Below, piece by piece: positions 361 through 43,567 of a DNA stretch of 64,000 bases. The first letter of the stretch is position 1. Each line of letters opens with the position of its first letter. The notes beneath the pieces are model-generated. The model saw only the letters and a list, made by a program, of their open reading frames with translations. It did no database searches and had not been told where the DNA came from. Made by a program: the position numbers and the translations under genes. Source of the stretch: Eunapius fragilis (lineage: Eukaryota > Porifera > Demospongiae > Spongillida > Spongillidae); the NCBI GenBank assembly GCA_963681505.1, contig OY811979.1, positions 1,970,714 through 2,034,713 on the forward strand, given 5' to 3'.

Positions 361-2489
361 AGGGATTGGTAGCGGGATTGGTAGTGGTAATTGACGTGGT
401 AGTGGGATTGGTAGTGGGATTGGTAGTGTAGTGGAAGTGGGATTGGTAGTGGTAGTGGGATTGGTAGTGGTAGTGGTAGTGGGATTGGTAGTGGGATTGG
501 TAGGCGTAGTGGTAGAGGTAGTGGGATTAGTAGTGGTAGTGGTATTGGTAGTGGGATTGGTAGTGGGATTGGTAGTGGGATTGGTAGTGGGTTTGGTAGT
601 TGGATTGGTAGTGGGATTGGTAGTGGGATTGGTAGTGGGATTGGTAGTGGGATTGGTAGTGGGATTGGTAGTGGGATTGGTAGTGGGATTGGTAATAGGA
701 TTGGTAGTGGGATTGGTAGTGGGATTGGTAGTTGGATTGGTAGTGGGATTGGTAGTGGGATTGGTAGTGGGACTGGTAGTTGTAGTGGTAGTGGGATTGG
801 TAGTGGTAGTGGTAGTGGTAGTGGGATTGGTAGTGGGATTGGTAGTGGGATTGGTAGTGGGATTGGTAGTGGGATTGGTAGTGGGATTGGTTGTGGGATT
901 GGTAGTGGGATTGGTAGTGGGATTGGTAGTGGGATGGTAGTGGGATAAGTAGTGGGATAGGTAGTGGTAGTGGTAGTGGGATTGGTAGTGGTAGTGGTAG
1001 TGGCTGTGATAGTGGGATTGGTAGTGGGATTGGTAGTGGGATTGGTAGTGGGATTGGTAGTGGGATTGGTAGTGGGATTGGTAGTGGGATTGGTAGTGGG
1101 ATTGGTAGTGGGATTGGTAGTGGGATTGGTAGTGGTAGTGGTAGTGGGATTGGTAGTGGTAGTGGTAGTGGTAGTGGTAGTGGGATTGGTAGTGGGATTG
1201 GTAGTTGGATTGGTAGTGGGATTAGTAGTGGGATTGGTAGTGGGATTGGTAGTGGGATTGGTAGTGGGATTGGTAGTGGGATTGGTAGTGGGTTTGGTAG
1301 TGGGATTGGTAGTGGGATTGGTAGTGGGATTGGTAGTGGGATTGGTAGTGGGATTGGTAGTGGGATTGGTAGTGGTAGTGGGATTGGTAGTGGGATTGGT
1401 AGTGGGATTGGTAGTGGGATTGGTAGTGGGATTGGTAGTGGGATTGGTTGTGGGATTGGTAGTGGTAGTGGTAGTGGTAGTGGGATTGGTAGAGGGATTG
1501 GTAGTGGGATTGGTAGTGGGATTGGTAGTGGGATTGGTAGTGGGATTGGGAGTGGGATTGGTAGTGGGATTGGTAGTGGGATTGGTAGTGGGATTGGTAG
1601 TGGGATTGGTAGTGGGATTGGTAGTGGGATTGGTAGTGGGATTGGTAGTGGGATTGGTAGTGGGATTGGTAGTGGGATTGGTAGTGGGATTGGTAGTGGG
1701 ATTGGTAGTGGGATTGGTAGTGGGATTGGTAGTGGGATTGGTAGTGGGATTGGTAGTGGGATTGGTAGAGGGATTGGTAGTGGGATTGTTAGTGGTAGTG
1801 GTAGTGGTTATGGGATTGGTAGTGGGATTGGTAGTGGGATTGGTAGTGGGATTGGTAGTGGGATTGGTAGTGGGATTGGTAGTGGGATTGGTAGTGGGAT
1901 TGGTAGTGGGATTGGTAGTGGGATTGGTAGTGGGATTGGTAGTGGGATTGGTAGTGGTAGTGGTAGTGGTAGTGGGATTGGTAGTGGGATTTGTAGTGGG
2001 ATTGGTAGTGGGATTGGTAGTGGGATTGGTAGTGGGGTTGTAGTGGGATTGGTAGTGGGATTGGTAGTGGGATTGGTAGTGGGATTGGTAGTGGTAGTGG
2101 TAGTGGGATTGGTAGTGGGATTGGTAGTGGGATTGGTAGTGGGATTGGTAGTGGGATTGGTAGTGGTAGTGGTAGTGGGATTTGTAGTGGGATTGGTAGT
2201 GGGATTGGTAGTGGGATTGGTAGTGGGATTGGTAGTGGGATTGGTAGTGGGATTGGTAGTGGGATTGGTAGTGGGATTGGTAGTGGGATTGGTAGTGGTA
2301 GTGGTAGTGGGATTGGTAGTGGTAGTGGTAGTGGTAGTGGTAGTGGGATTGGTAGTGGGATTAGTAGTTGGATTGGTAGTGGGATTAGTAGTGGGAATGG
2401 TAGTGGGATTGGTAGTGGGATTGGTAGTGGGATTGGTTGTGGGATTGGTAGTGGGATTGGTAGTGGGATTGGTAGTGGGATGGTAGTGG

Positions 2490-3737
2490 GATAAGTAGTG
2501 GGATTGGTAGTGGTAGTGGTAGTGGGATTGGTAGTGGTAGTGGTAGTGGTAGTGGTAGTGGGATTGGTACTGGGATTGGTAGTGGGATTGGTAGTGGGAT
2601 TGGTAGTGGGATTGGTAGTGGGATTGGTAGTGGGATTGGTAGTGGGATTGGTAGTGGGATTGGTAGTGAGATTGGTAGTGGGATTGGTAGTAGGATTGGT
2701 AGTGGGATTGGTAGTGGGATTGGTTGTGGGATTGGTAGTGGGATTGGTAGTTGGATTTGTAGTGGGATTAGTAGTGGGATTGGTAGTGGGATTGGTAGTG
2801 GGATTGGTAGTGGGATTGGTAGTGGGATTGGTAGTGGGATTGGTAGTGGGATTAGTAGTGGGATTGGTAGTGGGATTGGTAGTGGGATTGGTAGTGGGAT
2901 TGGTAGTGGTAGTGGGATTGGTAGTGGGATTGGTAGTGGGATTGGTAGTGGGATTGGTAGTGGGATTGGTAGTGGGATTGGTTGTGGGATTGGTAGTGGT
3001 AGTGGTAGTGGTAGTGGGATTGGTAGAGGGATTGGTAGTGGGATTGGTAGTGGCATTGGTAGTGGGATTGGTAGTGGGATTGGGAGTGGGATTGGTAGTG
3101 GGATTGGTAGTGGGATAAGTAGTGGGATTGGTAGTGGTAGTGGTAGTGGGATTGGTAGTGGTAGTGGTAGTGGTAGTGGTAGTGGGATTGGTACTGGGAT
3201 TGGTAGTGGGATTGGTAGTGGGATTGGTAGTGGGATTGGTAGTGGGATTGGTAGTGGGATTGGTAGTGGGATTGGTAGTCGGATTGGTAGTGAGATTGGT
3301 AGTGGGATTGGTAGTAGGATTGGTAGTGGGATTGGTAGTGGGATTGGTTGTGGGATTGGTAGTGGGATTGGTAGTTGGATTTGTAGTGGGATTAGTAGTG
3401 GGATTGGTAGTGGGATTGGTAGTGGGATTGGTAGTGGGATTGGTAGTGGGATTGGTAGTGGGATTGGTAGTGGGATTAGTAGTGGGATTGGTAGTGGGAT
3501 TGGTAGTGGGATTGGTAGTGGGATTGGTAGTGGTAGTGGGATTGGTAGTGGAATTGGTAGTGGGATTGGTAGTGGGATTGGTAGTGGGATTGGTAGTGGG
3601 ATTGGTTGTGGGATTGGTAGTGGTAGTGGTAGTGGTAGTGGGATTGGTAGAGGGATTGGTAGTGGGATTGGTAGTGGGATTGGTAGTGGGATTGGTAGTG
3701 GGATTGGGAGTGGGATTGTTAGTGGGATTGGTAGTGG
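2490..3737 (+). repeat. Higher-order tandem duplication in the satellite, period 624 bp
   Basis: The variant pattern starting near 2,494 recurs 624 bp later near 3,118, in the same order: GATAAGTAGTGGG, runs of GGTAGT, a GGTACT variant, a TGAGATT variant and a TAGGATT variant. This shows a recent tandem copying of a whole block of units. A related but less exact block occupies about 940-1,560. Confidence 0.8.
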
Positions 3738-5869
3738 GATTGGTAGTGGGATTGGTAGTGGGATTGGTAGTGGGATTGGTAGTGGGATTGGTAGGGGGAT
3801 TGGTAGTGGGATTGGTAGTGGGATTGGTAGTGGGATTGCTAGTGGGATTGGTAGTGGGACTGGTAGTGGGACTGGTAGTGGGATTGGTAGTGGGATTGGT
3901 AGTGGTAGTGGTAGTGGGATTGGTAGTGGGATTGGTATTGGGATTGGTAGTGGGATTGGTAGTGGGATTGGTAGTGGGATTGGTAGTGGGATTGGTAGTG
4001 GGATTGGTAGTGGGATTGGTAGTGGGATTGGTAGTGGGATTGGTAGTGGGATTGGTAGTGGGATTGGTAGTGGGATTGGTAGTGGGATTGGTAGTGGGAT
4101 TGGTAGTGGGATTGGTAGAGGGATTGGTAGTGGGATTAGTAGTGGTAGTGGTAGTGGTTATGGGATTGGTAGTGGGATTGGTAGTGGGATTGGTAGTGGG
4201 ATTGGTAGTGGGATTGGTAGTGGGATAGGTATTGGGATTGGTAGTGGGATTGGAGTGGGATTGGTAGTGGGATTGGTAGTGGGATTGGTAGTGGTAGTGG
4301 TAGTGGTAGTGGGATTGGTAGTGGGATTGGTAGTGGGATTGGTAGTGGGATTGGTAGTGGGATTGGTAGTGGGATTGGTAGAGGGATTGGTAGTAGGATT
4401 AGTAGTGGTAGTGGTAGTGGTTATGGGATTGGTAGTGGGATTGGTAGTGGGATTGGTAGTGGGATTGGTAGTGGGATTGGTAGTGGGATTGGTAGTGGGA
4501 TTGGTAGTGGGATTGGTAGTGGTAGTGGTAGTGGGATTGGTAGTGGGATTGGTAGTGGGATTGGTAGTGGGATTGGTAGTGGGATTGGTAGTGGTAGTGG
4601 TAGTGGGATTTGTAGTGGGATTGGTAGTGGGATTGGTAGTGGGATTGGTAGTGGGATTGGTAGTGGGATTGGTAGTGGGATTGGTAGTGGGATTGGTAGT
4701 GGGATTGGTAGTGGGATTGGTAGTGGGATTGGTAGTGGGATTGGTAGTGGGATTGGTAGTGGGATTGGTAGTGGGATTGGTAGTGGGATTGGTAGTGGGA
4801 TTGGTAGTGGGATTGGTAGTGGGATTGGTAGTGGGATTGGTAGTGGGATTGGTAGTGGGATTGGTAGTGGTAGTGGTAGTGGTAGTGGGATTGGTAGTGG
4901 GATTGGTAGTGGGATTGGTAGTGGGATTGGTAGTGGGATTGGTAGAGGGATTGGTTGTGGGATTGGTAGTGGTAGTGGTAGTGGTAGTGGGATTGGTAGT
5001 GGGATTGGTAGTTGGATTGGTAGTGGGATTGGTAGTGGGATTGGTAGTGGGATTGGTAGTGGGATTGGTAGTGGGATTGGTAGTGGGATTGGTAGTGGGA
5101 TTGGTAGTGGGATTGGTAGTGGGATTGGTAGTGGGATTGGTAGTGGGGTTGGTAGTGGGATTGGTAGTGGGATTGGTAGTGGGATTGGTCGTGGGTTTGG
5201 TAGTGGGATTGGTAGTGGGATTGGTAGTGGGATTGGTAGTGGGATTGGTAGTGGGATTGGTAGTGGGATTGGTAGTGGGATTGGTAGTGGGATTGGTAGT
5301 AGGATTGGTAGTGGGATTGGTAGTGTGATTGGTAGTGGGATTGGTAGTGGGATTGGTAGTGGGATTGGTAGTGGGATTGGTAGTGGGATTGGTAGTGGTA
5401 GTGGTTGTGGGATTGGTAGTGGTAGTGGTAGTGGTAGTGGGATTGGTAGTGGGATTGATAGTGGTAGTGGTAGTGGTAGTGGTAGTGGGATTGGTAGTGG
5501 GATTGGTAGTGGTAGTGGTAGTGGTTATGGGATTGATAGTGGGATTGGTAGTGGGATTGGTAGTGGGATTGGTAGTGGGATTGGTAGTGGGATTGGTAGT
5601 GGGATTGGTAGTGGGATTGGTAGTGGGATTGGTAGTGGGATTGGTAGTGGGATTGGTAGTGGTAGTGGTAGTGGGATTGGTAGTGGGATTGGTATTGGGA
5701 TTGGTAGTGGGATTGGTAGTAGGATTGGTACTGGGATTGGTAGTGGGATTGGTAGTGGGATTGGTAGTGGGATTGGTAGTGGGATTGGTAGTGGGATTGG
5801 TAGTGGGATTGGTAGTGGGATTGGTAGTGGGATTGGTAGTGGGATTGGTAGTGGTAGTGGTAGTGGTAG

Positions 5870-8800
5870 TGGGATTGGTAGTGGATTGGTAGTGGGATTG
5901 GTAGTGGTAATTGTAGTGGTAGTCTGATTGGAAGGGGGATTAGTAGTGGTACTGGTAGTGGGATTGGTAGTAGTAGTGGTAGTGGTAGTGGGATTGGTAG
6001 AGGGAGTGGTAGTGGGATTGGTAGTGGGATTAACAGTGGTAATTGTAGTGGTTGCGTGAATGGTAGTGGGATTGGTAGTGGGATTGGTAGTGGTAGTGGA
6101 AGTGGGATTGGTAGTGGGATTGGTAGTGGGATTGGTAGTGGGATTGGTAGTGGTGGTGGTAGTGGGATTGGTAGTGGGATTGGTAGTGGGATTGTTAGTG
6201 GGATTGGTAGTGAGATTGGTAGTGGTAGCGGTAGTGGGATTGGTAGTGGGATTGGTAGTGGGATTGGTAGTGGTAGTGGTAGTGGGAATGTTCGTGGGAT
6301 TGGTAGTGGTAGTGGTAGTGGGATTGTAGTGGGATTGGTAGTGGGATTGGTAGTGGGATTGGTAGTGGGATTGGTAGTGGGATTGGTAGTGGGTTTGGTA
6401 GTGGTAGTGGTTGTGGGATTGGTAGTGGGATTGGTAGTGGGATTGGTAGTGGGATTGGTAGTGGGATTGGTAGTGGCATTGGTAGAAGTAGTGGTAGTGG
6501 TAGTGGGATTGGTAGTGGGATCTGTAATGGAAATTCTAGTGGTAGTGGGATTGGTAGGGGAATTGGTAGTGGGATTGGTAGTGGGATTGGTAGTGGGATT
6601 GGTAGTGGGATAAGTAGTGGGATTGGTAGAGGTAGTGGTAGTGGGATTGGTAGTGGGATTGGTAGTGGGATTGGTAGTGGGATTGGTAGTGGGATTGGTA
6701 GTGGGATTGGTAGTGGGATTGGTAGTGGGATTGGTAGTGGGATTGGTAGTGGGATTGGTAGTGGGATTGGTAGTGGGATTGGTAGTGGGATTGGTAGTGG
6801 GATTGGTAGTGGGATTGGTAGTGGGATTGGTAGTGGGATTGGAAGTGGGATTGGTAGTGGTAGTGGTAGTGGGATTGGTAGTGGTAGTGGTAGTGGTAGT
6901 GGTAGTGGGATTGGTAGTGGGATTGGTAGTTGGATTGGTAGTGGGATTAGTAGTGGGAGTGGTAGTGGGATTGGTAGTGGGATTGGCAGTGGGATTGATA
7001 GTGGGATTGGTAGTGGGATTGGTAGTGGAATTGGTAGTGGGATTGGTAATTGGATTGGTAGTGGGATTGGTAGTGGGATTGGTAGTGGGATTGGTAGTGG
7101 GATTGGTAGTGGGAATAGTAGTGGGATTGGTAGTGGTAGTGGTAGTGGTATTGGGATTGGTAGTGGGATTGGTAGTGGGATTGGTAGTGGGACTGGTAGT
7201 GGGATTGGTAGTGGGATTGGTAGTGGGATTGGTAGTGGTAGTGGTAGTGGGATTGGTAGTGGGATTGGTAGTGGGATTGGTAGTGGGATTGGTAGTAGGA
7301 TTGGTAGTGGGATTGGTAGTGGGATTGGTTGTGGGATTGGTAGTGGGATTGGTAGTGGGACTGTAGTGGGATTGGTAGTGGGATTGGTAGTGGGATTGGT
7401 AGTGGGATTGGTAGTGGGATTGGTAGTGGGATTGGTAGTGGGATTGGTAGTGGGATGTGTAGTGGGATTGGTAGAGGGATAGGTAGTGGGATTGGTAGTG
7501 GTAGTGGTAGTGGTTATGGGATTGGTAGTGGGATTGGTAGTGGGATTGGTAGTGGGATTGGTAGTTGGATTGGTAGTGGGATTGGTAGTGGGATTGGTAG
7601 TGGGATTGGTAGTGTGATTGGTAGTGGGATTGGTAGTGGGATTGGTAGTGGGATTGGTTGTGGGATTGGTAGTGGTTGTGGTAGTGGGATTTGAAGTGGG
7701 ATTGGTAGTGGGATTGGTAGTGGGATTGGTAGTGGGATTGGTAGTGGGATTGGTAGTGGGATTGGTAGTGGGATTGGTAGTGGGATTGGTAGTGGGATTG
7801 GTAGTGGGATTGGTAGTGGGATTGGTAGTGGGATTGGTAGTGGGTTTGGTAGTTGGATTGGTAGTGGGATTGGTAGTGGGATTGGTAGTGGGATTGGTAG
7901 TGGGATTGGTAGTGGGATTGGTAGTGGGATTGGTAGTGGGATTGGTAGTGTAGTGGAAGTGGGATTGGTAGTGGTAGTGGGATTGGTAGTGGGATTGGTA
8001 GGGGTAGTGGTAGAGGAAGTGGGATTAGTAGTGGTAGTGGTAGTGGTAGTGGGATTGGTAGTGGATTGGTAGTGGGATTGGTAGTGGTAATTGTAGTGGT
8101 AGTCTGATTGGAAGGGGGATTAGTAGTGGTACTGGTAGTGGGATTGGTAGTAGTAGTGGTAGTGGTAGTGGGATTGGTAGAGGGAGTGGTAGTGGGATTG
8201 GTAGTGGGATTAACAGTGGTAATTGTAGTGGTTGCATGAATGGTAGTGGGATTGGTAGTGGGATTGGTAGTGGTAGTGGAAGTGGGATTGGTAGTGGGAT
8301 TGGTAGTGGGATTGGTAGTGGGATTGGTAGTGGTGGTGGTAGTGGGATTGGTAGTGGGATTGGTAGTGGGATTGTTAGTGGGATTGGTAGTGAGATTGGT
8401 AGTGGTAGTGGTAGTGGGATTGGTAGTGGGATTGGTAGTGGGATTGGTAGTGGTAGTGGTAGTGGGAATGTTCGTGGGATTGGTAGTGGTAGTGGTAGTG
8501 GGATTGTAGTGGGATTGGTAGTGGGATTGGTAGTGGGATTGGTAGTGGGATTGGTAGTGGGATTGGTAGTGGGTTTGGTAGTGGTAGTGGTTGTGGGATT
8601 GGTAGTGGGATTGGTAGTGGGATTGGTAGTGGGATTGGTAGTGGGATTGGTAGTGGCATTGGTAGAAGTAGTGGTAGTGGTAGTGGGATTGGTAGTGGGA
8701 TCTGTAGTGGAAATTCTAGTGGTAGTGGGATTGGTAGGGGAATTGGTAGTGGGATTGGTAGTGGGATTGGTAGTGGGATTGGTAGTGGGATAAGTTGTGG

Positions 8801-9110
8801 GATTGGTAGAGGTAGTGGTAGTGGGATTGGTAGTGGGATTGGTAGTGGGATTGGTAGTGGGATTGGTAGTGGGATTGGTAGTGGGATTGGTAGTGGGATT
8901 GGTAGTGGGATTGGTAGTGGGATTGGTAGTGGGATTGGTAGTGGGATTGGTAGTGGGATTGGTAGTGGGATTGGTAGTGGGATTGGTAGTGGGATTGGTA
9001 GTGGGATTGGTAGTGGGATTGGAAGTGGGATTGGTAGTGGTAGTGGTAGTGGGATTGGTAGCGGTAGTGGTAGTGGTAGTGGTAGTGGGATTGGTAGTGG
9101 GATTGGTAGT
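5870..9110 (+). repeat. Higher-order duplication in the satellite, offset 2,180 bp
   Basis: About 1.06 kb from 5,870-6,930 recurs at 8,050-9,110. Shared rare variants include GGTAATTGTAGTGG, TCTGATTGGAAGGG, GGTGGTGG, GGGAATGTTCGTGGG and GGAAATTCTAGTGG. Single-base differences are few (for example TGCGTGAATGG against TGCATGAATGG at 6,053 and 8,233). Shorter related pieces recur at about 9,430 and 9,880-10,160. Confidence 0.85.
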
Positions 9111-11789
9111 GGGATTGGTAGTGGGATTGGTAGTGGTAGTCGTAGTGGTAGTGGGATTGGTAGTGGGATTGGTAGTGGGATTGGTAGTGGGATTGGTAGT
9201 GGGATTGATAGTGGGATTTGTAGTGGTAGTGGTAGTGGTAGTGGGATTGGTAGTGTGATTGGGATTGGTAGTGGGATTGGTAGTGGGATTGGTAGTGGGA
9301 TCGGTAGTGGTAGTGGTAGTGGGATTGGTAGTGGGATTGGTAGTGGGATTGGTAGTGGGATTGGTAGTGGGATTGGTAGTGGGATTGGTAGAAGTAGTGG
9401 TATTGGTAGTGGGATTGGTAGTGGGATTTATAGTGGAAATTCTAGTGGTAGTGGGATTGGTAGGGGAATTGGTAGTGGTAGTGGTAGTGGGATTGGTAGT
9501 GGGATTGGTAGTGGTAGTGGTAGTGGGAATGGTACTGGGATTGGTAGTGGTAGTGGTAGTGGGATTGGTAGTGGGATTGGTAGTGGGATTGGTAGTGGGA
9601 TTGGTAGTGGGATTGGTAGTGGGATTGGTTGTGGGATTGGTAGTGGTAGTGGTAGTGGGATTGGTAGTGGGATTGGTAGTGGTAGTGGTAGTGGTAGTGG
9701 CATTGGTATTGGTAGTGGTAGTGGTAGTGGGATTGGTAGTGGGATTGGTAGTGGTAGTGGTAGTGGGATTGGAAGTGGTAGTAGTAGTGGGATTGGCCAG
9801 GGTAGTGGTAGTGGGATTGGTAGTAGTAGTGGTAGTGGTAGTGGGATTGGTAGTGGGATTGGTAGTGGGATTGGTAGTGGGATTAACAGTGGTAATTGTA
9901 GTGGTAGCGTGAATGGTAGTGGGATTGGGTAGTGGGATTGGTAGTGGTAGTGGGATTGGTAGTGGTAGTGGTAGTGGGATTGGTAGTGGGATTGGTAGTG
10001 GTGGTGGTAGTGGGATTGGTAGTGGGATTGGTAGTGGTAGTGGTAGAGATAGTGGGATTGGTAGTGGTAGTGGTAGTGGTAGTGGGTTTGGTAGTGGGAT
10101 AGGTAGTGGGATTGGTAATGGCAATTGTAGTGGTAGTGGGATTGGTAGGGGAATTACAAGTGGTAGTGGGATTGGTAGTGGTTGTGCTAGTGGGATTGGT
10201 AGTGGGATTGGTAATGGTAGTGGTAGTGGTAGTGGGAATGGTGGTGATAGTGGTAGAGGTAGTGGGATTGGTAGTGGGATTTATAGTTGGATTGGTAGTG
10301 GTAGTGGTAGAGGTAGTGGGATTGGTAGTTGTATTGGTAGTGGCATTGGTAGTGGGGTTGGTAGTGGTAGTGGTAGTCGTAGTGGGATTGGTAGTGGTAG
10401 CGGTAGTGGGAGTGGGATTGGAAGTGGGATTGGTCGTGGTAGTGGTAGTGGGATTGGAAGTGGTAATGGTAGTGGGATTGGTAGTGGGATTGGTAGTGGG
10501 ATTGATAGTGGTATTGGGATTGGTAGTGGGATTGGTAGTGGTAGTGGTATGGGATTGGTAGTGGTAGTGGGATTGGTAGTGGGATTGGTAGTGGTAGTGG
10601 TAGTGGTAGTGGAATTGGTAGTGGGATTGGTAATGGAAGTGGTAGTGGTAGTGGAATTGGTAGTGATAGTGATAGAGGTAGTGGGATTGATAGTGGTGGT
10701 GGTAGTGGGATTGGTAGTGGGATTGGTAGTGGTAGTGGGATTGGTAGTGGTAGTGGTAGTAGTAGTGGGATTGGTAGTGGTAGTGGGATTGGTAGTGGGG
10801 CAGCCCTGGTGAAAACCGTACTTTGTACTCGTCTATTAAACGCTCGTCGAGGATGTTGGTAAGTGCTACCCACAGCATCACTTTCTACCGCGTGCTATTT
10901 ACAACCTTCGTTCACATCTGCCGTGCCCCATGTTAATAGTATACTTACATCATTAGCTTACATAGCCACGGGTACGCATACATTGCCACGGGGCAAGCTT
11001 ACGTTGTCACGGGAGCACTTGTATTCACTTACATCGCTTACATAGCCACGGGTACGCTTACACTAGCCTAAATACCCGCGGGGCAAGATTTCGTAGTCGC
11101 GTGCACACTTGCAAATGCCTTTCAAACATACTCTAGCCTTTAGAATAGACATGGGTACCCTCGTTCAAATCCATGCATACTACGCCGTCAGCGTTCTAGG
11201 TCACGGGCACACATAAACAAGCTATCATTACAATGGGAAAAGCTTAGAGTCACGACACCACTTATGCCTTGAGTTTGTTTGGCTGCCAATTGAAAATCAA
11301 TTGATTTAATACATTGTATGGTCCGGGCACGACTAAAATTATTTGTTTATCATCTTGCCCAGTGTTGCACTGTGCTACGAATCCTTGTGGTTAGCACCAG
11401 GTATATTTGTATGGTTGCTCTGAACAGAGCAGTAATTGTTTAGCACGAATGTCATTTACGGGTGTCTATTTTACTAACATCAAGGCTTGACGTAGTGTAC
11501 AATAGGTTCAAAGCGCGACTGCATTATGATGTGTTGTTGGAAGATTGCGTTGTGCTCTGGCGTATCGTAAGCACCATATAGGACCAATTGCTGCATCAAG
11601 TAGACCTCTAGTTACAAGGCAGACCATCCAGCGCAAACAAACTGCACACACACTCCTCACAGATATAAGCTTTGCCCCTCACTCACCTTTTAAAAATCCT
11701 TGCGTCACTACAATAAGCAACCTGTACGCTATGTACCAATCTAATCCTTAAAATTTGAATTTGAAATAGTTACTTATTAATTATTCCTT

Positions 11790-13450: not shown

Positions 13451-13578
13451 TGTGATGTCTGATACACAACTAAATCCAAAACCGGGATTATGGAATGTCA
13501 ATTACAACGTGCACTCAATTTAAATAGTCCAATTAATGCAATCACTGCGCATGCTCCTACTAAGTCCAGTTCTTCACA
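13451..13578 (-). repeat. 128-bp Ty3/gypsy LTR (copy A, sense end)
   Basis: The LTR runs from TGTGAAGAACTGG to CAGACATCACA on the minus strand, with TG...CA ends and a TATTTAAG TATA-like box. It is preceded by the polypurine tract AGGGGAAAAGATA directly after the integrase stop codon, the expected arrangement at a 3' LTR. Confidence 0.75.
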
Positions 13579-13589
13579 TATCTTTTCCC

Positions 13590-13898
13590 CTAAGAAAAAC
13601 CCGCTTGATATTTTTCAACTTGCTTCTTGTTTCTCCTAGGTCTTCCTTCGGGTTCCCGTACATCCGGTACCTGCCTATTCGGTCCCCCTCCTTGCTCTGC
13701 CTCCTCTAGTACTGCATCATAGTCATCCAGTCTTTTCTCTACTCCAACTTGTCTGGGTACTTCGTCGTGTTGTCTTGTTTCCTGTTCATTCTCGTTTGCT
13801 GTTCCAGTGACTTCCTCTGTCGGAATCCACTCCTCCAAGCACCCAGTACTGCGTTTCCGTATCTGATCCTGATGTCTCCAAAGCCACCTAATATCTCG
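13590..13898 (-). pseudogene. Integrase C-terminal fragment (Ty3/gypsy pol), copy A
   Basis: The frame reads through the WLWRHQDQIRKR motif, typical of the C-terminal end of metazoan Ty3/gypsy integrases. An acidic linker and a basic tail follow, with the natural stop near 13,590. Only about 100 residues of a normally 400-500-residue integrase remain. The zinc-binding HHCC region and the DDE catalytic core are absent, and the upstream junction is 28S rRNA sequence. Confidence 0.75.
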
Positions 13899-14079
13899 GC
13901 AGCCAATCGGCCGCGTACGGGGTTCTCACCCTCTATGACGCGCCATTCCAGGTCAACTTTGGCCGACCGACTACCGAGCGCAGCTGCCTCTCTCGGCTAC
14001 AATTCGCCGGCTGTTCGCCGGAGATTTAAGGCTCGAGCTATTCCCGCTTCACTCGCCGTTACTGGGGGAATCCCTGTTG

Positions 14080-14112
<33 letters not shown>

Positions 14113-14143
14113 TTCAGCGGGTAGTCACGCCTGAGCTGAGGTC
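13893..14143 (-). pseudogene. 28S rRNA 5'-end fragment, about 250 bp (copy A)
   Basis: On the minus strand this begins GACCTCAGCTCAGGCG and contains CCCGCTGAATTTAAGC, AAGCGGAGGAAAAGAAAC, AGTAACGGCGAGTGAAGCGGG and GAGGGTGAGAACCCCGTA, the conserved landmarks of the 5' end of eukaryotic large-subunit rRNA in order. About 250 of more than 3,300 nt are present, embedded in retroelement sequence, so it is a captured fragment and not a functional rRNA gene. Confidence 0.9.
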
Positions 14144-14551
14144 CAGTTTTGAAAACATCTTCCCTCCTGGCAAGGTGGCTAACAAATCCTCTATTTTTGG
14201 AATAGGATATCTATCTACTTCCAAAGCTGGGTTTATTGTTAACCGGAAATCACCACAAATCCTAAACTTTTTATCTGTCTTCACCACTGGCACTATTGGG
14301 GCTGCCCATTCTGCTATTTCCACTGGCTCTAAAATACCCTCCCTGGTCAGTCTATCCAACTCTTCTTCCACCTGTACCTTCAAAGCATATGGCACGGGGC
14401 GAGCCTTACAAAACTTAGGCACTATCCCATCTTTTATCACCAGTTTTGCTTTCAACAGCAACCTTTTTTGGATTCTTTCATCATTTACTCCACACACGAG
14501 CCTGTCTCTTAACATTTCTGACAGCGCTTGCCCAAAATTACACCTTCTCGC
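14144..14551 (-). pseudogene. gag piece fused to reverse transcriptase N-terminus, copy A
   Basis: The frame first shows a gag C-terminal motif (LRDRLVCGVNDERIQKRLL), then moves straight into RT finger/palm sequence: RPVPYALK, EWAAPIVPV, RICGDFRLTINP, YPIPKIEDLLATLPGGKMFSKLDLSSG. The gag zinc knuckle and the protease that should lie between them are missing. RT stops at the LDLSSG motif, before the catalytic YxDD box, where 28S sequence takes over. Copy A keeps this frame open to the junction; copies B and C are broken just before it. Confidence 0.8.
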
Positions 14552-14655
14552 CCGAATAGGCAGGTACCGAATGTACGGGAACCCGAAGGAAGACCTAGGA
14601 GAAACAAGAAGCAAGTTGAAAAATATCAAGCGGGTTTTTCTTAGGGGAAAAGATA

Positions 14656-14783
14656 TGTGAAGAACTGGACTTAGTAGGAGCATGCGCAGTGATTGCATTA
14701 ATTGGACTATTTAAGTTGAGTGCACGTTGTAATTGACATTCCATAATCCCGGTTTTGGATTTACTTGTGTATCAGACATCACA
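14656..14783 (+). repeat. Inverted LTR forming the other terminus (copy A)
   Basis: The 128-bp LTR in the opposite orientation to the rest of the element. With 14,552-14,655 (inverted polypurine tract and integrase tail) it forms the 232-bp inverted terminal arm. Both outer ends of the composite are therefore the same LTR end (CATCACA). Confidence 0.8.
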
Positions 14784-21500: not shown

Positions 21501-23380
21501 TGCAATATGTATGCTGCAGGAGTAAAGTATGTCAGTATGCATGACTCCTGCAGGAGTGAACTATATATTTGCATGATTCCTGCAGGAGTCAAGTATGTCA
21601 GTATGCAAGACTCCTGCAGGAGTCAAGTATCTCAATGTATGACTCATGCAGGAGTCAAGTATCACCAAGCATGACACCTGCAGGAGTCAAGTATGTCATT
21701 ATGTCTGACTCCTGCAAGAGTCAAGTATTTCAATGTATGACTCTTGCAGGAGTCAAGTATTTCAATATGTATGACTCCTGCAGGAGTCAAGTATCTCCAT
21801 GTATGACTCCTGAAGGAGTCAAGTATGTCAGTATCAATGACTACTACAGGAGCCAGATGTCAATATGTATGATTCCTGCAGGAGTGAGCAATCTCCATGT
21901 ATGACTCCTGCAGGAGTAAAATATGTCACTATGAATGACTACTGCAGAAGTCAAGTATGTCAGATTTGATGACTTGTGCAGGAGTCTAATATGTCAAAAT
22001 GAATGACTCCTGCAGGAGTCAAGTATTTCAATCTATGACTCCTACAAGAGTCAAGTTTGTCAGTATGCATGACTCCAGCAGGAGTCAAATATTTCAATGA
22101 ATGACTCCTGCAGGAGTAAAGTATGTCAATATGTATGACTCCTCCAGTAGTCAATTATCTCCATGCATGACTCCTGCAGGAGTCAAGTATGTCAGTATGC
22201 AAGACTCCTGCAGGAGTCAAGTAGCTCAATGTATGACTCCTGCAGGAGTCAAGTATCTCCATGAATGACTCCTGCAGGAGTCAAGTATGTCAGAATGTAT
22301 GTGTCCTGCAGGAGTCAAGTATGTCAATACATATGACTCCTGTAGGTGTCAACTATATATTTGCATGACTCCTGCAGGAGTCAAGTAAGTCAGTTTGTAT
22401 GACTGCTGCAGGAGTCAAATATGTTACCATGACTCCTGCAGGAGTCAAGAATGTCAGTATGCAAGACTCCTGCAGGAGTCAAGTAGCTCAATGTAAGACT
22501 CCTGCAGGAGTCAAGTATCTCCATGAATGACTCCTGCAGGAGTCAAGTATGTCAGTACGTATGACTCCTGCAGGAGTCAAGTATGTCTCTCAAGAATTTC
22601 AATGTATGACTCCTGCAGGAGTCAAGTATTTCAATTATGACTCTTGCAGGAGTCAAGTATGTCAATATGTCTGACTCCTGCAGGAGTCAAGTATTTCAAT
22701 GTATGACTCCTGCAGGAGTCAAGTATTTCAATATGTATGCTGCAGGAGTAAAGTATGTCAGTATGCATGACTCCTGCAGGAGTCAACTATATATTTGCAT
22801 GATTCCTGCAGGAGTCAAGTATGTCAGTATGGAATACTCCTGCAGGAGTCAAGTATCTCAATGTATGACTCCTGCAGGAGTCAAGTATCTCCAAGCATGA
22901 CTCCTGCAGGAGTCAAGTATGTCATTATGTCTGACTCCTGCAGGAGTCAAGTATTTCAATGTATGACTCCTGCAGGAGTCAAGTGTATCAATATGTATGA
23001 CTCCTGCAGGAGTCAAGTATCTCCATGTATGACTCATGAAGGAGTCAAGTATGTCAGTATCAATGACTACTACAGGAGCCATATGTCAATATGTATGACT
23101 CCTGCAGGAGTGAGCAATCTCCATGTATGACTACTGCAGGAGTAAAATATGTCACTATGAATGACTCCTGCAGGAGTCAAGTATGTCAGTTTGGATGACT
23201 TGTGCAGGAGTCTAATATGAATGACTCCTGCAGGAGTCAAGTATTTCAATGTATGACTCCTACAAGAGTCAAGTTTGTCAGTATGCATGACTCCAGCAGG
23301 AGTCAAATATTTCAATGAATGACTCCTGCAGTAGTAAAGTATGTCAATATGTATGACTCCTCCAGTAGTCAGTTATCTCC

Positions 23381-36440: not shown

Positions 36441-36566
36441 TGCATGACTCCTGCAGGAGTCAAGTATGTCGGATTGGATGACTGCTGCTGGAGTCTAATA
36501 TGTCAGAATGTATGACTCCTGCTGGAGTCAACTATATATTTGCATGACTCCTGCAGAAGTCAAATA

Positions 36567-36694
36567 TGTGATGTCTGATACACAACTAAATCCAAAACCG
36601 GGATTATGGAATGTCAATTACAACGTGCACTCAACTTAAATAGTCCAATTTATGCAATCACTGCGCATGCTCCTACTAAGTCCAGTTCTTCACA
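36567..36694 (-). repeat. Inverted LTR (copy B left terminus)
   Basis: 128-bp LTR in inverted orientation, beginning TGTGATGTC and ending CTTCACA next to the inverted polypurine tract. Confidence 0.8.
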
Positions 36695-36798
36695 TATCTT
36701 TTCCCCTAAGAAAAACCCGCTTGATATTTTTCAACTTGCTTCTTGTTTCTCCTAGGTCTTCCTTCGGGTTCCCGTACATCCGGTACCTGCCTATTCGG

Positions 36799-37207
36799 GC
36801 GAGAAGGTATAATTTTGGGCAAGCGCTGTCAGAAATGTTAAGAGACAGGCTCGTGTGTGGAGTAAATGATGAAAGAATCCAAAAAAGGTTGCTGTTGAAA
36901 GCAAAACTGGTGATAAAAGATGGGATAGTGCCTAAGTTTTGTAAGGCTCGCCCGGTGCCATATGCTTTGAAGGGACAGGTGGAAGAAGAGTTGGATAGAC
37001 TGACCAGGGAGGGTATTTTAGAGCCAGTGGAAATAGCAGAATGGGCAGCCCCAATAGTGCCAGTGGTGAAGACAGATAAAAAGATTAGGATTTGTGGTGA
37101 TTTCCGGTTAACAATAAACCCAGCTTTGGAAGTAGATAGATATCCTATTCCAAAAATAGAGGGATTTGTTAGCCACCTTACCAGGAGGGAAGATGTTTTC
37201 AAAACTG
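36799..37207 (+). pseudogene. gag-RT fusion fragment, copy B
   Basis: The same gag motif and RT N-terminal motifs as copy A. One extra G in the segment after YPIPKIE (near 37,160) shifts the frame, so the conserved LPGGKMFSKLDLSSG end is out of frame. Non-functional. Confidence 0.8.
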
Positions 37208-37238
37208 GACCTCAGCTCAGGCGTGACTACCCGCTGAA

Positions 37239-37271
<33 letters not shown>

Positions 37272-37458
37272 CAACAGGGATTCCCCCATATACGGCGAGT
37301 GAAGCGGGAATAGCTCGAGCCTTAAATCTCCGGCGAACAGCCGGCGAATTGTAGCCGAGAGAGGCAGCAGCGCTCGGTAGTCGGTCGGCCAAAGTTGACC
37401 TGGAATGGCGCGTCATAGAGGGTGAGAACCCCGTACGCGGCCGATTGGCTGCCGAGAT
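37208..37458 (+). pseudogene. 28S rRNA 5'-end fragment, copy B
   Basis: Same fragment as copy A. The near-universal AGTAACGGCGAG is altered to ATATACGGCGAG (37,286-37,298), a change not tolerated in a working rRNA. This agrees with a decaying captured copy. Confidence 0.9.
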
Positions 37459-37761
37459 ATTAGGTGGCTTTGGAGACATCAGGATCAGATACGGAAACGC
37501 AGTACTGGGTGCTTGGAGGAGTGGATTCCGACAGAGGAAGTCACTGGAACAGCAAACGAGAATGAACAGGAAACAAGACAACACGACGAAGTACCCAGAC
37601 AAGTTGGAGTAGAGGAAAGACTGGATGACTATGATGCAGTACTAGAGGAGGCAGAGCAAGGAGGGGGACCGAATAGGCAGGTACCGGATGTACGGGAACC
37701 CGAAGGAAGACCTAGGAGAAACAAGAAGCAAGTTGAAAAATATCAAGCGGGTTTTTCTTAG
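37453..37761 (+). pseudogene. Integrase C-terminal fragment, copy B
   Basis: The frame carries WLWRHQDQIRKR (about 37,462-37,500), an acidic linker rich in Glu and Asp, and a basic RPRRNKKQ segment before the stop at 37,759. It differs from copies A and C at one codon (Glu against Lys or Val). The catalytic core is absent. Confidence 0.75.
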
Positions 37762-37772
37762 GGGAAAAGATA

Positions 37773-37900
37773 TGTGAAGAACTGGACTTAGTAGGAGCAT
37801 GCGCAGTGATTGCATTAATTGGACTATTTAAGTTGAGTGCACGTTGTAATTGACATTCCATAATCCCGGTTTTGGATTTAGTTGTGTATCAGACATCACA
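37773..37900 (+). repeat. LTR (copy B right terminus)
   Basis: 128-bp LTR with TG...CA ends and a TATTTAAG box near 37,827. It is immediately preceded by the polypurine tract AGGGGAAAAGATA. Confidence 0.8.
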
Positions 37901-38829
37901 AAGTATGTCAGATGGGATGATTGCTTCAGGAGTCAAATATGTCACTATCAATGACTCCTACAGGAGTCAAGTATTTCAATGTATGACTCCTACAAGAGTC
38001 AAGTTTGTCAGTATGCATGAGTACTGCAGGAGTCAAATATTTCAATGAATGACTCCTGCAGGAGTAAAATATGTCAATTTGTATGACTCCTGCAGGAGTC
38101 AAGTATCTCATTGTATGACTCCTGCAGGAGTCAAGTATGTCACTATGCAAGACTCCTGCAGGAGTCAAGTATTTCAATGTATGACTCCTGCAGGAGTCAA
38201 GGATGTCAATATGTATGACTTCTGCAGGAGTCAAGTATCTCCATGCATGACTCCTACAGGAGTGAAAAATCTCCATGTATGACTCCTGCAGGAGTCAAGT
38301 ATGTCAGTATGTATGACACCAGCCTGAGTCAAATATGTCACTATGAATGACTCCTGCAGGAGTCAAGTATTTCAATGTATGACTCCTGCAGGAGTGAAGT
38401 ATTTCAATGAATGACTCCTACTGGAGTCAAGAATGTCAATATGTATGACTCTTGCAGGAGTCAAGGATCTCCATGCATGACACCTGCAGGAGTCAAGTAT
38501 TTCAATGTATGACTCCTGCAGGAGTGAAGTATTTCAATGAATGACTCCTACAGGAGTCAAGAATGTCAATATGTATGACTCTTGCAGGAGTCAAGGATCT
38601 CCATGCATGACACCTGCAGGAGTCAAGTATGTCAGTATCAATGACTCCTGCAGGAGTCAAGTATTTCAATGTATGACTCAAGTATTTCAATGTATGACTC
38701 CTGCAGGAGTCAAATATATCATTATGTATGACTCTTGCAGGAGTCAACTCTATACTTGCATGACTCCTGCAGGAGTCATGTATTTCAATGTATGACTCCT
38801 GCAGGAGTCAAGTATGTCAGTATGTATGA
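37901..38829 (+). repeat. Palindromic TGACTCC satellite
   Basis: About 28 units of 32-34 bp, plus orientation, between element B and the low-copy block. It contains one extra run of about four units (around 38,380-38,510) that is absent from copy C. Confidence 0.95.
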
Positions 38830-39169
38830 CTAATAGTTTTAATTTGCAGTGCGATGTTTCTTCACATACTAAGGACATGTAATACAGTGTACACTTAAAA
38901 TGATGTAGTTCCAGTATGTGCACTTCTATACAATTTATGCAAGGAAAATTTGTAAGTCTGTTGGGTGGGTTGGCGGGTGGTTGGTCCTTCCCATAGTGCA
39001 TCAAGATGTTCTAACAAGCCCATCGTGGCACATGTAACCTTACCTAAGTGACAAGGCCATATGCAGGTACTGTAGTGCTTTTTACTACCGCTGCATACGT
39101 GTGTTCAAATTATACATGGCACTGCAGGTGTCAAGCTAGCTGGTAAAAGACACGCCACACGTGTAAGTG

Positions 39170-39247
39170 AAGCCTGGTTAATTCATGGACAACGACTTAA
39201 TTTAGGTGACAAGGTAGGTACGGTAGTGCGTTTGAATCGCACGGCTT
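39170..39247 (+). other. tRNA-like fold (copy B)
   Basis: Same 78-nt candidate as in copy A: T-arm-like hairpin GTGCG-TTTGAAT-CGCAC and a five-pair outer stem. Weak evidence. Confidence 0.25.
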
Positions 39248-39436
39248 AGAGATATAATATTGAACGTGGCCTAGCAGATGTGAATTAAGCTCGTAGGTGG
39301 CACGCCAGTCGTGTGGGAAGCTTAGTTAATAGAAAAAACTTGTATCAACGGCCAAATGTGCGGACGCTATACAAAAAAGTAATTAGGAACGTACATTGAT
39401 GGAAGTTCAATAGACGAGAACAAAGTTCGGTCTTGC

Positions 39437-39691
39437 GTGGGCAGTCTGTCCTCGCTCCTGTGCCACACATTTCTAAAGGATGAAAGGTGTAAGGCAAGGC
39501 TATGGCAAATTTCAAAGTATCCAGTGGTTGTACATAAAGGGACTCACGCATTGTATTCCGGAATAGGTCGTACACTCTCCCGCGTACCCCTGTTGCACCT
39601 TCAGAAATGTGCGGCACGTATATCCCACCCTTCGTACCTGTTTAAACAGCTCAGCTCTGCTATTGAGGCCAATCGCTACAAAGTGCATTAA
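39437..39691 (+). CDS. Unrecognised 84-residue open frame (copy B)
   Basis: Copy of the 84-residue frame described at 11,790-12,044, differing near the C-terminus. The function is unknown and coding status is doubtful. Confidence 0.15.
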   Translation: MGSLSSLLCHTFLKDERCKARLWQISKYPVVVHKGTHALYSGIGRTLSRVPLLHLQKCAARISHPSYLFKQLSSAIEANRYKVH

Positions 39692-40682
39692 AAGGAATAA
39701 TTAATAAGTAACTATTTCAAATTCAAATTTTAAGGATTAGATTGGTACATAGCGTACAGGTTGCTTATTGTAGTGACGCAAGGATTTTTAAAAGGTGAGT
39801 GAGGGGCAAAGCTTATATCTGTGAGGAGTGTGTGTGCAGTGTGTTTGCGCTGGATGGTCTGCCTCGTAACTAGAGGTCTACTTGATGCAGCAATTGGTCC
39901 TATATGGTGCTTACGATACGACAGAGCACAACGCAATCTTCCAACAACACATCATAATGCAGTCGCGCTTTGAACCTATTGTACAACTACGTCAAGCCTT
40001 GATGTTAGTAAAATAGACACCCGTAAATGACATTCGTGCTAAACAATTACTGCTCTGTTCAGAGCAACCATACAAATATACCTGGTGCTAACCACAAGGA
40101 TTCGTAGCACAGTGCAACACTGGGCAAGATGATAAACAAATAATTTTAGTCGTGCCCGGACCATACAATGTATTAAATCAATTGATTTTCAATTGGCAGC
40201 CAAACAAACTCAAGGCATAAGTGGTGTCGTGACTCTAAGCTTTTCCCATTGTAATGATAGCTTGTTTATGTGTGCCCGTGACCTAGAACGCTGACGGCGT
40301 AGTATGCATGGATTTGAACGAGGGTACCCATGTCTATTCTAATAGCTAGAGTATGTTTGAAAGGCATTTGCAAGTGTGCACGCGACTACGAAAGCTTGCC
40401 CCGCGGGTATTTAGGCTAGTGTAAGCGTACCCGTGGCTATGTAAGCGATGTAAGTGAATACAAGTGCTCCCGTGACAACGTAAGCTTGCCCCGTGGCAAT
40501 GTATGCGTACCCGTGGCTATGTAAGCTAATGATGTAAGTATACTATTAACATGGGGCACGGCAGATGTGAACGAAGGTTGTAAATAGCACGCGGTAGAAA
40601 GTGATGCTGTGGGTAGCACTTACCAACATCCTCGACGAGCGTTTAATAGACGAGTACAAAGTACGGTTTTCACCTGGGCTGC

Positions 40683-41552
40683 CCCACTACCAATCCCACT
40701 ACCACTACCAATCCCACTACTACTACCACTACCACTACCAATCCCACTACCACTACCAATCCCACTACCAATCCCACTACCACCACCACTATCAATCCCA
40801 CTACCTCTATCACTATCACTACCAATTCCACTACCACTACCACTTCCATTACCAATCCCACTACCAATTCCACTACCACTACCACTACCACTACCAATCC
40901 CACTACCAATCCCACTACCACTACCAATCCCATTACCACTACCACTACCAATCCCACTACCAATCCCAATACCACTATCAATCCCACTACCAATCCCACT
41001 ACCAATCCCACTACCATTACCACTTCCAATCCCACTACCACTACCACTACCAATCCCACTGCCAATCCCACTCCCACTACCGCTACCACTACCAATCCCA
41101 CTACGACTACCACTACCACTACCAACCCCACTACCAATGCCACTACCAATACAACTACCAATCCCACTACCTCTACCACTACCACTACCAATCCAACTAC
41201 AAATCCCACTACCAATCCCACTACCTCTACCACTATCACCACCATTCCCACTACCACTACCACTACCATTACCAATCCCACTACCAATCCCACAAGCACA
41301 ACCACTACCAATCCCACTACCACTACCACTTGTAATTCCCCTACCAATCCCACTACCACTACAATTGCCATTACCAATCCCACTACCTATCCCACTACCA
41401 AACCCACTACCACTACCACTACCACTACCAATCCCACTATCTCTACCACTACCACTACCAATCCCACTACCAATCCCACTACCACCACCACTACCAATCC
41501 CACTACCAATCCCACTACCACTACCACTACCAATCCCACTACCACTACCAAT
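40683..41552 (-). repeat. 12-bp satellite, inverted (copy B)
   Basis: About 870 bp of CCCACTACCAAT and CCACTA units, the reverse complement of roughly 9,920-10,800. It carries the same rare variants (for example CACTATCAATCCC, CACTACCTCTATC and CCAATACAACTACC). It passes directly into palindromic satellite near 41,552. Confidence 0.95.
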
Positions 41553-42234: not shown

Positions 42235-42466
42235 TGTGATGTCTGATACACAACTAAATCCAAAACCGGGATTATGGAATGTCAATTACAACGTGCACTC
42301 AACTTAAATAGTCCAATTAATGCAATCACTGCGCATGCTCCTACTAAGTCCAGTTCTTCACATATCTTTTCCCCTAAGAAAAACCCGCTTGATATTTTTC
42401 AACTTGCTTCTTGTTTCTCCTAGGTCTTCCATCGGGTTCCCGTACATCCGGTACCTGCCTATTCGG

Positions 42467-42874
42467 GCGAGAAGATGTAATTTTGGGCAAGCGCTGTCAG
42501 AAATGTTAAGAGACAGGCTCGTGTGTGGAGTAAATGATGAAAGAATCCAAAAAAGGTTGCTGTTGAAAGCAAAACTGGTGATAAAAGATGGGATAGTGCC
42601 TAAGTTTTGTAAGGCTCGCCCGGTGCCATATGCTTTGAAGGGACAGGTGGAAGAAGAGTTGGATAGACTGACCAGGGAGGGTATTTTAGAGCCAGTGGAA
42701 ATAGCAGAATGGGCAGCCCCAATAGTGCCAGTGGTGAAGACAGATAAAAAGATTAGGATTTGTGGTGATTTCCAGTTAACAATAAACCCAGCTTTGGAAG
42801 TAGATAGATATCCTATTCCAAAAATATTGGATTTTTTAGCCACCTAGGCAGGAGGGAAGATGTTTTCAAAACTG
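42467..42874 (+). pseudogene. gag-RT fusion fragment, copy C
   Basis: Same motifs as copy A. An in-frame stop (TAG at about 42,845) replaces the Leu of the ATLPGGK motif, just upstream of the 28S junction. Non-functional. Confidence 0.8.
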
Positions 42875-42905
42875 GACCTCAGCTCAGGCGTGACTACCCG
42901 CTGAA

Positions 42906-42938
<33 letters not shown>

Positions 42939-43125
42939 CAACAGGGATTCCCCCAGTAACGGCGAGTGAAGCGGGAATAGCTCGAGCCTTAAATCTCCGG
43001 CGAACAGCCGGCGAATTGTAGCCGAGAGAGGCACCTGCGCTCGGTAGTCGGTCGGCCAAAGTTGACCTGGAATGGCGCGTCATAGAGGGTGAGAACCCCG
43101 TACGCGGCCGATTGGCTGCCGAGAT
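42875..43125 (+). pseudogene. 28S rRNA 5'-end fragment, copy C
   Basis: Same captured fragment. It keeps AGTAACGGCGAG but has local changes in the variable stem (GGCACCTGCGCTCGG against GGCAGCAGCGCTCGG in copy B). Confidence 0.9.
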
Positions 43126-43428
43126 ATTAGGTGGCTTTGGAGACATCAGGATCAGATACGGAAACGCAGTACTGGGTGCTTGGAGGAGTGGATTCCGACA
43201 GAGGAAGTCACTGGAACAGCAAACGAGAATGAACAGGAAACAAGACAACACGACGAAGTACCCAGACAAGTTGGAGTAGAGGTAAGACTGGATGACTATG
43301 ATGCAGTACTAGAGGAGGCAGAGCAAGGAGGGGGACCAAATAGGCAGGTACCGGATGTACGAGAACCCGAAGGAAGACCTAGGAGAAACAAGAAGCAAGT
43401 TGAAAAATATCAAGCGGGTTTTTCTTAG
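43120..43428 (+). pseudogene. Integrase C-terminal fragment, copy C
   Basis: Same WLWRHQDQIRKR motif and natural stop as copies A and B. The zinc-binding and catalytic domains are absent. Confidence 0.75.
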
Positions 43429-43439
43429 GGGAAAAGATA

Positions 43440-43567
43440 TGTGAAGAACTGGACTTAGTAGGAGCATGCGCAGTGATTGCATTAATTGGACTATTTAAGT
43501 TGAGTGCACGTTGTAATTGACATTCCATAATCCCGGTTTTGGATTTAGTTGTGTATCAGACATCACA
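43440..43567 (+). repeat. LTR (copy C right terminus)
   Basis: 128-bp LTR, near-identical to those of copies A and B, with the polypurine tract just upstream. Confidence 0.8.

Follow-up and report, generated by a model that had tools for sequence, protein, structure and literature searches.

How did a piece of 28S rRNA come to lie between two inverted copies of a long terminal repeat (LTR) in the genome of the sponge Eunapius fragilis? The question is raised by a locus in a 64,000-nt stretch of contig OY811979.1 (positions 1,970,714 to 2,034,713, assembly GCA_963681505.1), hereafter the window. At positions 36567-37900 of the window two 232-nt inverted arms enclose a gag-region piece, a reverse transcriptase (RT) piece, 28S rRNA and an integrase-side (IN) piece. 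A first-pass annotation, made from the letters alone, read this arrangement as cDNA of a Ty3/gypsy-type element that had undergone several template switches and a foldback before being integrated through two identical ends. The genome searches reported here cover the assembly from which the window is taken (24 contigs, 219 Mb in all), and all repeat counts are lower bounds.

Anatomy of the chimera

The chimeric structure at this locus is confirmed. Direct comparison of the arms (36567-36798 and 37669-37900) showed complementarity at 231 of 232 positions, the sole mismatch being at arm position 85. In each arm, as had been annotated, an LTR (128 bp) is combined with a polypurine tract and the tail of the integrase side. 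The bounds of the LTR were defined through the direct LTR pair of an element on contig C2, described below. A Ty3/Gypsy element is recognized by direct LTRs and a complete gag-pol region; the chimera has inverted LTRs and fragments only. The features are collected in Table 1.

Table 1. Features of the chimera and its copies in the window (element positions refer to the C2 element).
Feature	Position	Strand	Evidence
Left copy of putative target duplication, AAATA	36562..36566	.	Within satellite unit; 11/11 full copies; empty-site test best at 5 bp
Inverted LTR, 128 bp, U5 end outward	36567..36694	-	Match to C2/C5 element LTRs
Inverted polypurine tract and integrase-side tail (remainder of left arm)	36695..36798	-	Element 4276-4045, 97.4% across whole arm
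Gag-region segment including switch zone, named by position only	36799..36909	+	Element 499-609, 98.2%
Gag/RT switch zone	36896..36909	+	13/14 nt common; 11 exact at 36899-36909
Reverse transcriptase segment	36896..37210	+	Element 1391-1704, 98.4%; Ty3-type RT sequences, E 2.6e-4, 8.6e-4
RT/28S switch zone GGAC at 28S 5' end	37207..37210	+	1-4 nt common
~270 nt of 28S rRNA, from its 5' end	37207..37476	+	Rfam LSU matches
28S/IN switch zone GGAGA	37472..37476	+	Common to both sides; last base C in 5/11 copies
Integrase-side segment of element 3' end, named by position	37472..37668	+	Element 3848-4044, inside 98.6% match over 3848-4276
Internal 11-nt purine tract, immediately before right arm	37658..37668	+	1 of 9 runs >=11 in element
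Right arm: tail, polypurine tract 37760-37770, LTR 37773-37900	37669..37900	+	Arm comparison and element match
Right copy of putative target duplication, AAGTA	37901..37905	.	Flank comparison
Second full copy	13451..14783	-	Flanks as at 36567; 98.95%
Third full copy	42235..43567	+	Flanks as at 36567; 98.6%

Parent elements in the same genome

All four element-derived segments map to a full-length Ty3-like relative, the 4276-bp element on C2, at 97.4-98.6% identity. This element has direct 128-bp LTRs and a 5-bp target duplication, ATAGC. A longer, interrupted element on C5 likewise has direct 128-bp LTRs and is bordered by AGGAT. In both copies looked at, the LTRs have TG...CA ends and the target duplication has the same length, in line with the earlier statement that Ty3/gypsy LTRs are normally direct. 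The RT piece of the C2 parent matches RVT_1 at 2e-30 and a downstream piece matches Integrase_H2C2 (8.6e-15) and rve (2.5e-11); the parent therefore carries a DDE integrase, with RT upstream of integrase as in Ty3.

Domain searches of the chimera itself gave less. Its RT piece is weakly similar to two RTs of solved structure, 4ol8 (E 2.6e-4), which we take to be a Ty3 RT, and 7q5b (E 8.6e-4), an entry named Ty3-G. A Pfam search of three chimera pieces, the RT piece included, returned no match, and an NCBIfam search of two gave a single meaningless one. The first-pass annotation had described a gag motif fused to RT. The RT piece and its joint were recovered, and the name 'gag' holds by position only: the 34-aa piece had no Pfam match, and the wider gag-region piece of the parent gave a single below-cut-off match, to an unrelated family.

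An internally deleted element of the C2 family, about 1 kb long, is present on C16 (C16:4981300-4983200, 428-1459 of that locus). Its deletion joins element positions 613 and 3838, both within ~15 nt of the gag and IN breakpoints of the chimera, and the junction pattern occurs once in the genome. Descent of the chimera from this element was rejected, as the C16 copy is only 91-93% like C2, compared with 97-99% for the chimera. RNA pairing between the breakpoints gave no support to a hotspot: of 139 windows, 61 paired equally well or better with the gag window and 124 with the IN window. The proximity of the C16 breakpoints to two of those in the chimera is left unexplained by a template-switch model.

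Origin of the ribosomal segment

The annotated 28S 5'-end piece was borne out at ~270 nt, passing the Rfam gathering score in all three window copies. For the copy at 36567 the highest score, 72.9 bits, came from the archaeal LSU model, and for the other two it came from the eukaryotic model (132.9 and 134.7 bits). When the copy at 42235 was searched alone, the alignment began, at GGAC, from position 1 of LSU_rRNA_eukarya, which we take to lie near the mature 28S 5' end.

A genome search with the 28S piece returned at least 21 matches, comprising 11 chimera copies, an isolated piece on C10 and nine short pieces. The C10 piece (C10:3165000-3174000, 4802-5122 of that locus) is the longest outside the chimera and is ~92% identical. 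Two of the short pieces, on C5 and at C1:17638253, are 100% identical to the query and the other seven 87-95%; among the six that were read, the two exact ones span 70 and 66 bp. The 66-bp piece is a 28S 5' piece on the minus strand (C1:17636300-17640300, ~1954-2019 of that locus). A spacer precedes it, with no 5.8S visible between the 28S sequence and a motif that is presumably an 18S 3' end, and it is followed by a frame that by eye resembles a non-LTR RT.

Neither the 28S-piece search nor the loci around one C2 and the C3 copy of 5.8S revealed an rDNA array in the assembly that could supply the host's own 28S for comparison with the chimera piece. With 39 of 4468 candidates scored, the 5.8S search found at least three copies, including two full-length matches 9.4 kb apart (C2:1056391-1056547 and C2:1065813-1065969). 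The two 5.8S loci that were read, one on C2 and one on C3, held no 28S, and in the 9.9 kb around C2:1056391-1056547 neither 28S nor 18S reached the Rfam gathering score. It is likely that the 28S piece comes from the same species.

Joints between the segments

Each joint carries parental sequence on either side (positions in C2 element coordinates). At the gag/RT joint, gag 596-609 passes to RT 1391-1404 with 13 of 14 nt in common, and 795 nt are skipped, taken as the difference between the two alignments. RT sequence continues to 1701-1704 and is followed by 28S starting at GGAC. Here the 28S 5' fragment on C1 reads GGGCCTCAG where the chimera has GGACCTCAG, G instead of A, so that the overlap may be only 1 nt within a range of 1-4. 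At the 28S/IN joint, 28S near nt 270 passes to IN 3848 with 5 nt (GGAGA) in common; the last base is C (GGAGC) in five of the 11 full copies, which we take as a later change because A stands at this position in each parent and in the C10 28S piece. Among simulated random joints, a match of >=4 nt arose at a frequency of ~0.017, >=5 nt at ~0.005 and >=11 nt at ~0.00025. The 28S piece thus lies inside LTR-element sequence with similarities of 5 and 1-4 nt at its edges, the pattern by which LTR-mediated chimeric retroposition is recognized. The three template switches proposed in the first-pass annotation are supported by same-genome parents, by homology at two joints and by the position of the RT/28S joint at the 28S 5' end.

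The remaining joint, between arm and gag, differs. The left arm runs inverted from 4276 to 4045 and is followed by 499, with no homology. The right arm starts at element position 4045, immediately after a purine run at 4034-4044. The element has nine runs of >=11 purines, that is nine sites among 4020 internal positions, which puts the chance of an exact match at ~0.2%; corresponding values are ~0.7% within one base and 0.5% exact for runs of >=9, all computed post hoc. Of the LTR-inverting step that had been proposed, the inverted arm stands; a plain foldback is not indicated, because the arm/gag joint lacks homology and follows the purine tract.

Two other sources of the joints were rejected. 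That the gag-RT junction was donated by an older deletion element does not fit the genome search, in which the gag/RT joint pattern (<=3 mismatches) had 11 matches, every one in a chimera copy, and a reversed control pattern had none. Autointegration would link an LTR end to an internal site, an arrangement seen at none of the joints.

Outer ends and target site

Both outer ends of the chimera are exact U5 LTR ends. In all 11 full copies the inverted similarity stops at the LTR termini, the flanks matching at only 5-6 of 30 positions, and the same flanks, AAATA and AAGTA, are present. These are identical at four of five positions and lie in a satellite containing both variants. For one copy, the flanks were joined after removal of 0-11 bp and compared with satellite units; removal of 5 bp was best (73/80), followed by 7 bp (68/80). 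The unit that gives this best score lies next to the insertion, within the left flank of the copies themselves; the best elsewhere in the array, at 22348, scored 72. The flanks fit a 5-bp duplication that integrase would have made, with one later change. The near-match duplication in a satellite unit noted earlier therefore holds in every full copy, and the exact termini, the parent-like duplication and the empty-site optimum favour the proposed integration via two identical LTR ends.

Copies and their spread

The copies annotated at 13,451, 36,567 and 42,235 all exist, the first on the minus strand. With 40 of 68 candidates scored, the genome search gave at least 90 places that match, at least 11 of them full length, on eight contigs, with alignments at 98-100%. 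A truncated copy on C19 retains 220 nt of the right arm (100%) and the right flank of the full copies. In each of the 55 pairs of copies the left flanks agree for 157 bp or more, the limit being set at the first 20-bp window with <11 matches, and three groups share more. Beyond ~160 bp the left flanks of different copy groups diverge to 53-74% in 800-bp global alignments, which we take as probable satellite rearrangement. The right flank is 96.4-99.9% identical, gaps uncounted, in 10 of 10 comparisons against one copy.

Because all copies sit in the same flanks, we interpret them as one integration that later spread with its satellite block; the common flanks of the 11 full copies rule out several independent integrations. 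The block at 38832-40420 was found beside 12 of 12 chimera places, split in two at four of them and partly missing at one of these four (L009; the others are L010, L013 and L014). A tandem-repeat search listed no array within 38832-40420. The flanks indicate that the block was duplicated, rather than the chimera itself being copied. For eight of 10 computed places, the C19 copy included, the nearer contig end is 5-427 kb away, and for two places on C9 it is about 1.9-2.0 Mb away. Two of the 11 copies have identical arms, which leaves no arm difference that every copy shares; in the remaining nine the arms differ at 1-6 positions. The first duplication thus seems to have followed soon after the insertion.

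Two further observations concern the surroundings. A long 12-bp satellite (GGGATTGGTAGT) adjoins a TGACTCCTGCAGGAGTCA satellite at 362-10780 and 40684-41550 of the window. TTAGGG repeats occur in the portion read at the tip of C4 and at none of three other contig ends looked at.

A model and its alternatives

We consider it probable that a multiply template-switched cDNA of a local Ty3-like element, bearing two U5 ends, was integrated once and then duplicated, a reading that supports the first-pass interpretation. First-strand synthesis would have copied the 3' LTR, the polypurine tract and integrase-side sequence, then switched onto 28S rRNA at the GGAGA match and continued to the rRNA 5' end. 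There it would have jumped to element RNA within RT, and subsequently from RT to gag at the 13/14-nt match. Synthesis would then have stopped in gag, with homology-free joining to an LTR segment whose inner edge follows the 11-nt purine tract, as if begun there as second-strand DNA. Integrase may have used the two U5 ends of the product in an otherwise normal integration into a satellite unit, and the block with the chimera would subsequently have been duplicated. The anatomy, the parents, the joints and the common flanks are observed directly; from them we infer the order of these switches, an RNA template for the 28S piece, the use of integrase and the origin of the inverted arm. Secondary polypurine tracts at which the second strand starts inside the integrase region are known as the central PPT of HIV-1 and PPT2 of Ty1; in the chimera, such a start is something we infer from the position of the arm edge.

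For the inverted arm only, a variant of this model holds that host end joining fused two separate cDNAs head to head before integration: one was the gag-RT-28S-IN-LTR chimera, the other an LTR segment of 232 bp whose synthesis began at the internal purine tract. We give this variant somewhat under an even chance. The absence of homology at the arm/gag joint and the arm edge directly after the purine tract speak for it; it requires two molecules and a blunt joint, and RT jumping to the end of a strand as its new template would leave an identical trace.

An origin at the DNA level, in which break repair, palindrome formation or replication switching reshaped a normal insertion already in the chromosome, is unlikely. 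In its favour, a simple deletion between short repeats could by itself have made the gag/RT joint, C16 holds a deletion element of the same family, and satellite rearrangement is visible in the left flanks. Such events do not readily account for inverted similarity that ends exactly at both LTR ends, for the 5-bp near-duplication bordering them or for a 28S piece that begins at the 28S 5' end.

A new mobile family with inverted LTRs, DIRS-like or transposon-like, is very improbable and is already refuted for the copies found: 11 full copies on eight contigs and inverted termini resembling those of DIRS-1 (PMC5633606) might suggest one, but these copies and the C19 copy share one satellite context, which does not indicate autonomous movement, the longest stop-to-stop frame over the chimera is 220 aa, and the LTRs of the C2 parent are direct and its integrase is of the DDE type. 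An assembly or library artefact, conceivable in a region rich in satellite, is scarcely credible given 11 full-length alignments at 98-100%, a gag/RT joint pattern confirmed in 11 copies and substitutions private to single copies.

Relation to known systems and significance

In LTR-mediated retroposition in metazoans, chimeric cDNA of an LTR element and a cellular RNA integrates (Tan et al. 2016, as cited in PMC5408686). On our reading the chimera resembles these cases in template switching to cellular RNA at short similarities followed by integration, and differs from those described there in the use of 28S rRNA, the several switches and the same LTR end inverted at both sides. The Ty1-Y' chimeras of yeast, in which RNA of the subtelomeric Y' repeats is mobilized at subtelomeres (Maxwell et al. 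2004, as cited in PMC4700185), are likewise chimeric LTR-element cDNAs associated with repeats; unlike them as portrayed in that source, the chimera apparently entered a satellite and spread by duplication. DIRS-1 shares the inverted LTRs and, according to PMC5633606, is a replicating family with a tyrosine recombinase, in contrast to the direct LTRs and DDE integrase of the C2 parent. The marks of the DIRS group are this recombinase and an internal complementary region. Among the papers that searches of an open-access library listed, we recognized none on inverted LTRs that flank a piece of rRNA.

The chimera preserves a legible series of reverse-transcription errors within a single molecule, among them the copying of 28S rRNA as far as the 5' end. 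It also suggests that integrase is able to act on a pair of identical LTR ends in vivo. Its fixed joints make the copies useful markers for the spread of the satellite block. A bolder proposal, to which we attach little probability, is that a living genome took up a retroelement cDNA with two U5 ends, the second arm of which had been primed at a secondary polypurine tract. Satellite blocks would then have carried its putative outward-facing LTR promoters, together with a 232-bp hairpin of the parent LTR, into many regions, where they could promote transcription of the satellite or give rise to small RNAs directed at the parent.
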